Source: an uncultured bacterium (GTDB lineage: Bacteria > Cyanobacteriota > Vampirovibrionia > Gastranaerophilales > Gastranaerophilaceae). Taken from it: a stretch of DNA of 62,938 bases. The notes under the pieces are model-generated. The model saw only the letters and a program-made list of their open reading frames with translations, searched no databases and was not told the origin of the DNA. Where the stretch lies: assembly GCA_902801985.1 (NCBI GenBank), contig CADCKD010000008.1, positions 44,419-107,356 on the forward strand, written 5' to 3'. Position 1 is the stretch's first letter. Each line of letters starts with the position of its first letter. Shown here piece after piece: positions 1 through 61,134 of this stretch. The translations under genes and the position numbers were made by a program.

Positions 1-318
1 CGCAGCTCTTGCTGCACTTGCAAACGCATCATTAAGTACAATTGCTCCTGACGGGGTTGATGGCATATAAGGGTTGTAATCATTCGCAACAGATGGCATC
101 ATAAGCAAGCTGTATGAAAGATTTATATCTGAACCGGTTGCTTCATTTGACCAAACGAGTCTTGTTGCGTTCATTCCGTTGGAATAATCTTGAGCAATTT
201 GAGCTAACTGGTTAGTTATTTCCAGTTTTTGCTGGGCTAACTCAGTAGTTTTGAATTCACATTGAGCTTTTCTCATTGTGATTCCCAAAAATCTAGCTTG
301 TGATGCGGCTAATCCCAT
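1..318 (-). CDS. Lineage-type hypothetical protein, 3' end outside window (partial)
   Basis: An open frame runs from an ATG at 318 off the left edge, giving 106 residues without a stop. It begins MGLAASQARFLGITMRKAQ, continues with an amphipathic Q/E-rich helix (roughly residues 20-50, 'TTELAQQKLEITNQLAQIA'), then 'YSNGMNATRLVW' and a less ordered part. I do not recognise a named family; proteins with this N-terminus recur in Melainabacteria (recollection, not a search). The frame is preceded by GGATTTGAG as a weak ribosome site and, about 45 bases upstream, by a near-consensus sigma-28 promoter on the same strand. That ties the gene to late flagellar expression, so a filament, chaperone or motility-associated role is plausible but unproven. 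Confidence 0.75.
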   Translation of the reverse strand, partial: MGLAASQARFLGITMRKAQCEFKTTELAQQKLEITNQLAQIAQDYSNGMNATRLVWSNEATGSDINLSYSLLMMPSVANDYNPYMPSTPSGAIVLNDAFASAARAA

Positions 319-12724: not shown

Positions 12725-13126
12725 ATGAGAATTCCAGTGAAAATAGCAACAAGGCAGGCCGCAATAGACGCATTTAGTGCAATCGCAAATCCGAATTACA
12801 GACATAACGGTTCGTTGGGTAAATATATAAAATTCTTAGATTTGTATCGCTACAACCAGACAATAGGCGAATTGACCCGTCAAAAATATGTTGATAAATT
12901 TTCCAGAAGTGCATATTTCAATTCAAATATGGAAGTTATTGAAAGGCAGCCTTCTGTTTTGTACTTGAAGAGCCTTATTGAAAGCAATAAAAAACGTGAT
13001 TATCCAAAAACTGCGAAAATAAGAGATTATATATTAAAAACTCGCGGTTTATCATTTAACGAGATTGAACCGGCAAAAAGATCTCATTTTATTGACCGCA
13101 TAAGGATTTTATTTAATTGGTACTAA
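12725..13126 (+). CDS. Small basic hypothetical protein
   Basis: A 133-residue, basic, soluble protein (MRIPVKIATRQAAIDAFSAI...) with predicted helices throughout and no recognised domain. AGTAGGTT lies before the ATG. It follows the clpB terminator and precedes the sigma-28-driven small RNA by about 70 bases. Nothing shows its role; the many Arg/Lys and Tyr residues would allow nucleic-acid binding, but this is a guess. Confidence 0.6.
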   Translation: MRIPVKIATRQAAIDAFSAIANPNYRHNGSLGKYIKFLDLYRYNQTIGELTRQKYVDKFSRSAYFNSNMEVIERQPSVLYLKSLIESNKKRDYPKTAKIRDYILKTRGLSFNEIEPAKRSHFIDRIRILFNWY

Positions 13127-13198
13127 ATATTTACTCGCAATATTTAGAGAAAAGCAAAATATAATTGTAACAATTTTGTAATATTTGGACTAAAAAAT

Positions 13199-13225
13199 TA
13201 AAGTTTTAGGAAAAAGTGCCGATAT
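13199..13225 (+). promoter_or_regulatory. Consensus sigma-28 (FliA) promoter
   Basis: TAAAGTTT at 13199-13206, an 11-base spacer and GCCGATAT at 13218-13225: a match to the flagellar sigma-28 consensus in both boxes and in spacing. It points at a short region without any reading frame that ends in a terminator at 13282-13306. Confidence 0.75.
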
Positions 13226-13232
13226 ATATTAT

Positions 13233-13306
13233 GTAATTAAAATCATAATAAATTTCCTCCTTTTCCTACTACTACATAAACGGAACCTCAAAAGGTTCCT
13301 TTTTTA
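13233..13306 (+). ncRNA. Candidate sigma-28-dependent small RNA (about 74 nt)
   Basis: From the predicted start to the terminator no coding frame exists; the only ATG is followed at once by TAA. The RNA has an A/U-rich 5' part, a pyrimidine segment TTTCCTCCTTTTCC near 13253-13266 that matches the anti-Shine-Dalgarno, a CTACTACTAC run, and ends in the hairpin GGAACC-TCAAAA-GGTTCC plus T6. An exposed CCUCC segment before an intrinsic terminator is the layout of many base-pairing sRNAs that block ribosome sites. Driven by the flagellar sigma factor, it could repress other genes when flagella are built. Confidence 0.55.
13282..13306 (+). terminator. Rho-independent terminator
   Basis: GGAACC-TCAAAA-GGTTCC followed by TTTTTT. 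It ends the candidate small RNA and isolates the PBP gene downstream. Confidence 0.85.
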
Positions 13307-13325
13307 TTTACTAAAATTTATTAGG

Positions 13326-13334
13326 TGGTATAAT
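13326..13334 (+). promoter_or_regulatory. Extended -10 promoter of the PBP1A gene
   Basis: TGG-TATAAT with no good -35 box. A start near 13341 leaves a 23-base leader with GGAAAGGAAG before the ATG at 13364. Confidence 0.6.
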
Positions 13335-13363: not shown

Positions 13364-15502
13364 ATGTCAAATTCATACGAGAGATATAAAAAACAACGTG
13401 CGCAGCAGCAAGGAAATAATGTTGAGCGTCAATCTACAAAACGAGTTAATAAATTTTTTAATAATTTAAAAATGTTTATACTGATAGTTACGGCTTTAAT
13501 GCTTGCAGGGTTTGTGGCATTGAATTTGTACCTGTCATCATTGCCGAAGATAGATCATTTGGAAGAATTTAAACCAAATATTGTTACTAAATTTTATTCT
13601 GAAGATGGTGAAATCATTAAAACATTTACAGCATACACTTATGACAAAGTTGATTTGAAAGATGTTCCGGAAGAATTAAAGAATGCAATTATTGCAACAG
13701 AGGATAAGAATTTTTATCGTCATAAGGGGTATGATTTATTTGGTATTGTAAGATCTTCTATTCAAAACGTGATAGCTCGTCATGCAGTTCAGGGGGCCAG
13801 TACTATTACCCAGCAGTTAGCAAGAATTTTATTCTTGTCTAATGAAAGAACATTATCAAGAAAAGTAAAAGAACTGGAAGTAGCAACTCGTATTGAAAAA
13901 ACTATTTCAAAAGATAAAATTTTGGAAATGTATTTAAATAATGTATATTTAGGTGCAGGGGCTTATGGTGTTTCAGCGGCTTCAAAAATATATTTTAATA
14001 AAAAACTTAATCAATTGACTTTATCAGAACTTGCGCTTTTGGCAGGCTTGCCTCAGGCTCCTTCTGTTTATAACCCTTATAACAATTTAGAGCTTGCGAA
14101 AAAACGTCGTAATCAGGTTCTAAAAAGAATGAGAACAATGCGTTATATTACGGAAGATGAATATAAAGCAGCAATAGAGGACGAAATAAAGTTGAGTGAA
14201 ATACCTCAATTATATACAGCAAATAAAGCTCCATATTTCAGTGACTTTGTTATGAAAGAATTGGAGAGTTTAGGTTTTTCTGAAACGGATGTAATTCACG
14301 GCGGTTATCGTGTAATTACTACTCTTGATTCGAAAGCTCAAGAAAAAGCTAATGAATCTGTTTTAGCAAATATGAAAGTATACGGTTTGACAGGAAAATC
14401 TCAGCAGGCTGCTGTATTTTCATACAGCCCTATAAACGGAAGAATACTGGCTTATGTTGGCGGGAAAAATTATGGAGAATCTCAATATGACCGTGTAACT
14501 CAGGCTATCAGGCCTCCCGGATCATCATTTAAGCCGTTTGTATATGCTGCGGCTATGGAAAAGGGGTATTCTCCAAATGATATAGTTGATGACCATCCGA
14601 TTACTATTGCGAAATGGTCTCCAAGAAACTATGGTAATAAATATAGAGGTAAAATTCCTGTATATAAAGCTCTTATGATTTCTTCAAATGTTTGTGCTGC
14701 AAGAATTATAAAAGAAGTTGGTATTCGTGCGGTAATTCAAATGGCAAAAAATTTGGGTATAACAACTGATTTGCAGTATGATTATACGATTTCGCTCGGG
14801 TCAAACGGAGTAAAATTGTATGAATTTGTACGTGCATATGGTGCATTTGCAAATGGAGGTTTTGTAGTAGAGCCTTATGCTATTGAAAGAATTGAAGATT
14901 CAAGAGGCAGAGTTTTATATAGAGCTCCAAAAACTAAATCAACTCATCAATTAAGTTTAAAAACTGCGGCCGAAATGACTGCTATGATGAAAACCGTAAT
15001 TAAATCCGGTACAGGAAGAGGAGCTGATATTGGCAAACCTGCAGCAGGCAAGACGGGTACGACTGATGATTATCGTGATGCTTATTTTGTAGGTTATACT
15101 CCTGACATTGTTACGGGGGTATGGGTTGGTGATGATAATAATAAACAAATGAAAGGCCTTACAGGCGGTACAATTCCTGCAAAAATTTGGCGTGATGTTA
15201 TGACTGTTGCAACAGCTCAGTATGGGAATAAAGATTTTGATTATCCTGTAATTGCTTTAGACGGTTATAACGGGCGATTGATAGGTGATGATGAGTCAGG
15301 GGAAGAAGAAACTGAAACAGAAGATGAAACGAAAACAGAAACATCTGCTGAACCAGTGACGACGGATGTTATTGAGTTGAAACCGACAACTCCGGCTGAT
15401 GTTGTTAGAAATTTCAAGCAGCAAACGACTACGCCGGCACCTACTCCTGCTAATACCGACAAAGCTCCTATTCCTATGGCTGTACCTGAAAGCTTGAGAT
15501 AA
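13364..15502 (+). CDS. Bifunctional penicillin-binding protein 1A
   Basis: A 712-residue class A PBP that polymerises glycan strands and cross-links peptides in the periplasm. A basic cytoplasmic tail is followed by one membrane anchor (about 35-57). The GT51 transglycosylase domain has its catalytic Glu in ATEDKNFYRHKG (near 112) and QGASTITQQLARI. The transpeptidase domain has GSSFKPF (active Ser near 386), SSN (near 440) and KTGTT (near 560). The tail (about 640-712) is rich in Glu/Thr/Pro and looks disordered. I chose the ATG at 13364 with its GGAAAGGAAG site; a TTG seven codons upstream would start almost at the transcription start. Confidence 0.95.
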   Translation: MSNSYERYKKQRAQQQGNNVERQSTKRVNKFFNNLKMFILIVTALMLAGFVALNLYLSSLPKIDHLEEFKPNIVTKFYSEDGEIIKTFTAYTYDKVDLKDVPEELKNAIIATEDKNFYRHKGYDLFGIVRSSIQNVIARHAVQGASTITQQLARILFLSNERTLSRKVKELEVATRIEKTISKDKILEMYLNNVYLGAGAYGVSAASKIYFNKKLNQLTLSELALLAGLPQAPSVYNPYNNLELAKKRRNQVLKRMRTMRYITEDEYKAAIEDEIKLSEIPQLYTANKAPYFSDFVMKELESLGFSETDVIHGGYRVITTLDSKAQEKANESVLANMKVYGLTGKSQQAAVFSYSPINGRILAYVGGKNYGESQYDRVTQAIRPPGSSFKPFVYAAAMEKGYSPNDIVDDHPITIAKWSPRNYGNKYRGKIPVYKALMISSNVCAARIIKEVGIRAVIQMAKNLGITTDLQYDYTISLGSNGVKLYEFVRAYGAFANGGFVVEPYAIERIEDSRGRVLYRAPKTKSTHQLSLKTAAEMTAMMKTVIKSGTGRGADIGKPAAGKTGTTDDYRDAYFVGYTPDIVTGVWVGDDNNKQMKGLTGGTIPAKIWRDVMTVATAQYGNKDFDYPVIALDGYNGRLIGDDESGEEETETEDETKTETSAEPVTTDVIELKPTTPADVVRNFKQQTTTPAPTPANTDKAPIPMAVPESLR

Positions 15503-61062: not shown

Positions 61063-61134
61063 TCCTCAGTAGCTCAATGGCGGAGCATTCGACTGTTAAT
61101 CGAAGGGTTGCTGGTTCGAGTCCAGCCTGGGGAG
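61063..61134 (+). tRNA. tRNA-Asn (GTT)
   Basis: A 72-base cloverleaf: acceptor TCCTCAG/CTGGGGA, D stem GCTC/GAGC, anticodon stem TTCGA/TCGAA with loop CTGTTAA (anticodon GTT), T stem GCTGG/CCAGC with TTCGAGT loop, discriminator G. The CCA end is not encoded. Confidence 0.95.

Follow-up and report, generated by a model that had tools for sequence, protein, structure and literature searches.

The segment at 13199–13306 of the window, by which we mean the whole analysed stretch of 62,938 nucleotides on contig C8 of an assembly comprising 74 contigs and 99.9% complete, is probably an autonomous gene for a small RNA driven by the sigma factor FliA (sigma-28), whose core most likely pairs with ribosome-binding sites and blocks translation. 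A sigma-28-dependent small RNA is supported by the conservation of this autonomous unit, by the presence of a gene for FliA in the genome, and by the occurrence of the exact promoter pattern TAAAGTTT-N10..12-GCCGATA, which has five matches in the 2.14-Mb genome versus none for the reversed control pattern; a looser FliA promoter pattern had 60 genome matches versus 28 for its control. The following features were recognised, all on the plus strand:

13163..13190, + strand, upstream TTGTAACA-type element (TTGTAAC..TTAACA), of which the TGTAAC half alone is clear in the window
13199..13206, + strand, -35 box of the FliA/sigma-28 promoter, TAAAGTTT, read from the sequence; TAAAG is invariant in 41 aligned homologues
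13218..13225, + strand, -10 box of the FliA/sigma-28 promoter, GCCGATAT; the homologues have NCCGATA or a near variant of it
13231..13305, + strand, predicted small RNA of about 73–75 nt, with a conserved ATGTAA start region, a variable linker, and a conserved core plus terminator
13253..13266, + strand, anti-Shine-Dalgarno-like core UUUCCUCCUUUUCC, unpaired, near-invariant in the genus, and proposed as the segment that pairs
13282..13305, + strand, intrinsic terminator, a 7-bp stem GGAACCT/AGGTTCC followed by TTTTTT; the stem is kept and the loop is variable

The boxes and spacing of the promoter are those given in the preliminary description, with 11 bases between TAAAGTTT and the -10 box in the window and 11 or 12 among the homologues. 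Within 50 bp 5' of the -35 box, the pattern TGT[AT]A[CA]..TTAA[CT]A was found in 60% of the homologues versus 0.2% of random genome 50-mers. Strings resembling the TTGTAAC..TTAACA element also occur 5' of other FliA promoters. The predicted RNA start at 13231–13233 was placed by its distance from the -10 box; the conserved ATGTAA at this site reads as a start codon followed immediately by a stop, and TGTAA-like strings are also present 3' of other FliA promoters. No reading frame of at least 60 amino acids was found within 13199–13306, which agrees with the earlier view of a stretch of about 74 bases devoid of coding sequence. The clean intrinsic terminator described there was likewise recovered as the hairpin GGAACCTCAAAAGGTTCC at 13282–13299 with TTTTTT directly 3' of it. 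Folding of the predicted 74-nt RNA yielded this hairpin as the sole structure (-10.2 kcal/mol, z -3.2). The exposed C-rich segment that had been pointed out corresponds to the core UUUCCUCCUUUUCC, which is single-stranded in the predicted fold and has a mean unpaired probability of 0.92 over 41 homologues; the C/U-rich stretch at 13253–13266 also reads TTTCCTCCTTTTCC. Several features of a stand-alone sigma-28 sRNA were found here: a FliA-type promoter directly 5' of the RNA, FliA itself, absence of coding capacity, a conserved segment that is exposed, and an intrinsic terminator. RNA polymerase carrying a FliA-type sigma factor would start at about 13231–13233 and stop at the intrinsic terminator, producing an RNA of about 74 nt with the terminator hairpin as its only structure. 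The exposed UUUCCUCCUUUUCC could then pair with the purine-rich ribosome-binding sites of some mRNAs, and such pairing would block their translation when FliA is active.

The conservation of the unit in relatives is far beyond chance. Relatives identified via the neighbouring PBP1A gene were mostly Gastranaerophilales/Melainabacteria assemblies from guts and rumens, and 46 genomes of the same genus formed the comparison set. A BLAST search with the 112-bp unit, which represents independent evidence within the genus because the covariance model was trained on these sequences, matched 44 of the 46 genomes, most of them over the full unit; the matches in G005, G012, and G043 proved to be FliA promoters of other genes. 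Reading of the loci, the covariance model (R1), and alignment combined placed the RNA in 42 of the 46 genomes, 41 by the covariance model and G011 by alignment. These three approaches detected no copy in G005, G008, G012, and G043, although all four carry FliA, while G010 and G044 have two copies each. Phage records contained no match.

Over the 41 aligned sequences, identity was 98% in the -35 box, 90% in the -10 box, 97% in the 3' arm of the terminator stem, 98% in the T-tract, and 99.8% in the core, the last value being inflated because the sequences were collected with a core pattern. The promoter spacer (63%) and the terminator loop (56%) were less conserved in the same alignment. A FliA-type promoter lies 5' of all copies read, and a clear terminator lies 3' of nearly all copies in the genus; at locus L159, the terminator stem is swapped for a different one with the hairpin kept, and in G022 (L058), the terminator looks disrupted. 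The covariance search in related genomes and the check for joint conservation of promoter and terminator, both proposed at the outset, therefore came out in favour of the unit: promoter, core, and terminator are kept together in changing contexts, and weaker matches appear outside the genus. With FliA present as well, the initial idea of a non-coding RNA that is controlled by FliA and exposes an anti-Shine-Dalgarno segment gains strong comparative support.

The proteins encoded on either side of the RNA loci belong to many unrelated clusters, and 25 of 39 loci are followed by a gene on the opposite strand; therefore, the unit is neither a leader nor a remnant of one operon. Judged by its sequence context, a promoter, core, and terminator that are co-conserved in changing surroundings have the look of a trans-acting RNA gene. 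The window locus itself could suggest that the unit serves as a 5' leader, or as an attenuator, for the downstream PBP1A gene (start near 13364), which is the next same-strand gene both in this genome and in G009. However, the next gene differs in other genomes and often has the opposite orientation, and PBP1A has its own sigma-70-like site, TTTACT-16-TATAAT at 13307–13334, just 3' of the unit, so that a leader function, contradicted by synteny, is highly improbable and was rejected. Hardly more credible is the minus strand as the conserved one, with GGAAAAGGAGGAAATTTATTATG serving as the ribosome site and start codon of a small gene. The GGAAAAGGAGGAAATTTATTATG string does occur in many of the genomes, but the frames behind it range from 2 to 40 codons, vary from genome to genome, and in most cases end within 2 to 5 codons, and the minus-strand ATG is absent from a large part of the genus; a gene with such unconserved frames was also rejected.

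Some neighbours do recur. The 133-aa protein encoded at 12725–13126 (+) of the window has no Pfam or NCBIfam match; in 13 of about 40 loci, a member of its family is found next to the sRNA, on one side or the other. In the genus of the window, the RNA locus adjoins dut at L064, L154, and L159.

Outside the genus, the covariance model gave weaker matches, and these loci were read individually. Two g7 genomes (G314 and G351) have a FliA promoter followed by a short RNA with TTCCTCCTTTTCC and a terminator, without an ORF. In eight other g7 genomes, a FliA-type promoter, often with a GACGTTA variant of the -10 box, precedes an ORF of about 57 aa (of the type MVEFNSDIPKG..ISVFKGKK), a TTCCTCCTTTTCCTCG-like segment, and a terminator. 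The arrangement thus recurs in other genera of the family: the g7 module, CCUCCUUUUCC plus terminator behind a FliA-type promoter, occurs both stand-alone and at the tail of a small mRNA. The arrangement in g10 (G196 and G180) is similar to this mRNA form, with a less clear promoter that was read in G196 only, and three g35 genomes carry a FliA promoter with a related RNA containing TTTTCCCCC. Most g7 genomes carry the small ORF at the site between GH57 and dut; G314 lacks it there but keeps the RNA end, and therefore the RNA end is probably under stronger retention. The FliA-driven ORF of about 57 aa located between GH57 and dut was seen at L219:3606-3776 and its relatives in g7 and g10; the anti-Shine-Dalgarno module sits in its 3' UTR. 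The covariance matches in G180:C1, G307, G122, and G270 were rejected on reading, having no FliA promoter or core.

The window's own genome encodes one clear FliA/WhiG-family sigma factor (234.6 bits versus a cut-off of 189.6), and FliA scores above the curated cut-off in 45 of the 46 genomes of the genus. In G036 (L066, G036:C33), the RNA gene is located about 184 bp upstream of fliA itself. The genus retains genes for flagellar-type export and for the basal body: FlhA/FHIPEP is present in all 46 genomes, and a FliE-FliF-FliH-FlhA cluster occurs in the own genome. A canonical flagellin was not found in 45 of the 46 genomes, and the sole flagellin-positive one is an assembly with 6% contamination and two FliA genes above the cut-off. 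The absence of a recognisable flagellin is established for the genus, while a claim that there is no filament would go beyond the evidence. The suggestion that the RNA links flagellar completion to repression of other mRNAs finds no support, canonical flagellin being missing while the export and basal-body genes are kept. Incomplete flagellar gene sets have been reported for most Gastranaerophilales genomes examined (PMC4040986), and some members are thought to be motile (PMC5877343).

A second FHIPEP-type protein of about 494 aa (L312:5924-7402, minus strand), which has the C-terminal half of the domain only, occurs genus-wide. There is also a multi-copy family of proteins starting with MGLxxSQARLL, with members at L016:1501-3026, L036:1501-3026, and L265:12036-14093, and at positions 1–318 (-) of the window. 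The L016 and L036 members sit behind FliA-type promoters in the own genome. The ends of these proteins are conserved and the middle is variable; the structure predicted for one member had a mean pLDDT of 46, with confident helices at both ends only. This plan resembles that of flagellar axial proteins, although no sequence search links the two; the family members are candidates for being exported by the flagellar-type system or for forming its axial parts. One could tentatively hypothesise, at somewhat less than even odds, that the FliA regulon has been uncoupled from motility and that the sRNA acts as the post-transcriptional arm of a repurposed export system, with the helix-ended proteins as possible substrates or axial parts. 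In this lineage, which lacks canonical flagellin, a FliA system repurposed in this way would control both the helix-ended proteins and the sRNA, the latter made on its own or as the tail of a small mRNA.

Pairing with ribosome-binding sites is a plausible, if unproven, mode of action and the best supported one. The CCUCCUUU part of the core is perfectly complementary to a strong Shine-Dalgarno sequence, and in the sampled genes the core paired with start regions at a mean of -8.5 kcal/mol versus -5.6 kcal/mol for internal coding sequence. Shuffled cores reached a mean of -8.15 kcal/mol (sd 0.45) against start regions, and since the core itself did no better than these, the start-region energy reflects base composition as much as specificity. 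The complement of the core at two mismatches had 43 matches versus 48 for the control pattern. The target prediction proposed in the preliminary description thus showed a preference for start regions over coding interiors, but brought up no outstanding target among the complement matches, the energies sampled in the own genome, or the genus-wide complements of ribosome-binding sites. The best single candidate in the energy-based prediction, which covered about 460 kb of own-genome sequence, was a 403-aa protein (L273:16633-17844) with the ribosome-binding site ACGGAAAAGGGGAAAUUAG (-20.6 kcal/mol). Exact complements at ribosome-binding sites across the genus were found mainly at rpsI (8 genomes) and rpsG (2), the only recurrent ones, and neither of these occurs in the own genome.

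The same core could, in principle, act in other ways. A long, C/U-rich, unstructured, and nearly invariant single strand might serve as a sponge for a protein such as Rho, a cold-shock or KH-type protein, ribosomal protein S1, or an Hfq-like chaperone, with no mRNA pairing at all, and the failure of a specific mRNA target to emerge from the searches would fit such a function. We regard it as unlikely, given that CCUCCUUU complements a strong Shine-Dalgarno sequence exactly and that C-rich regions pairing with mRNAs are known in other sRNAs (PMC8216469). A slightly lower probability is assigned to a general decoy role, in which the RNA mimics the 16S rRNA 3' end and lowers translation of mRNAs with strong Shine-Dalgarno sequences, for example those of ribosomal protein genes, when FliA is active. 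The core and the canonical 16S tail share CCUCCUUU, and the exact complements found across the genus fall in rpsI and rpsG; moreover, two of the sigma-28 sRNAs of E. coli have a ribosomal protein operon as their target (PMC10578931). However, the rpsI match sits in the coding end of rplM, has no counterpart in the own genome, and would be expected anyway for genes with strong Shine-Dalgarno sequences, while conservation of the core reaches past the Shine-Dalgarno complement (CCCCUACUACUA).

Rfam 15 has no family matching the unit at the gathering threshold (the best sub-threshold match scored 21.6 bits versus a cut-off of 60), and the only Rfam 15 match in the window is a tRNA at 61063. A search of the open-access literature revealed no sRNA described for Gastranaerophilales or Melainabacteria; the sigma-28 sRNAs found described there come from relatives of E. 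coli and from Campylobacter. If a cyanobacterial lineage that is non-photosynthetic and has no recognisable flagellin conserves a sigma-28 sRNA, this arrangement must have arisen or persisted well beyond classical motility control. Such an RNA would also provide a handle on the role of FliA in these gut bacteria; most of the genomes examined lack part of the flagellar gene set (PMC4040986).

Yfr1, known from Cyanobacteria, the photosynthetic sister group of this lineage, is also short (54–69 nt), ends in a terminator, and holds a CU-rich motif that is unpaired and ultraconserved (PMC2190773). However, the motif in Yfr1 is ACUCCUCACAC and its 5' end forms a stem-loop, while the RNA described here has UUUCCUCCUUUUCC instead of ACUCCUCACAC in its unpaired centre, the terminator hairpin as its only stem, and a FliA-type promoter. 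FsrA, RoxS, and CsfG of Bacillus share C-rich regions with it, those of FsrA and RoxS pairing with mRNAs (PMC8216469), but, compared by description, they differ in regulators and structures. The E. coli sRNAs UhpU, MotR, FliX, and FlgO are FliA-dependent, and some derive from mRNA 3' ends, like the g7/g10 form; again by description, they differ in being UTR-derived and Hfq-associated, and MotR and FliX pair inside coding sequences (PMC10578931). The closest functional analogue appears to be the sRNA pair CjNC1/CjNC4 of thermophilic Campylobacter, also named CJnc10/CJnc170 or FlmR (PMC4626219, PMC11187230). These are likewise short stand-alone RNAs (under 50 nt) from a sigma-28 promoter, in which a single terminator hairpin follows a stretch that is complementary to ribosome sites, and they likewise have paralogous copies and are conserved across related species (PMC4626219, PMC11187230). 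They differ in phylum, sequence, and seed, and the targets predicted for them are sigma-54 flagellar genes in a flagellated organism, whereas the genus studied here has no recognisable flagellin. We therefore file the RNA as a new family of a known functional kind, that of CjNC1/CjNC4, in another phylum.
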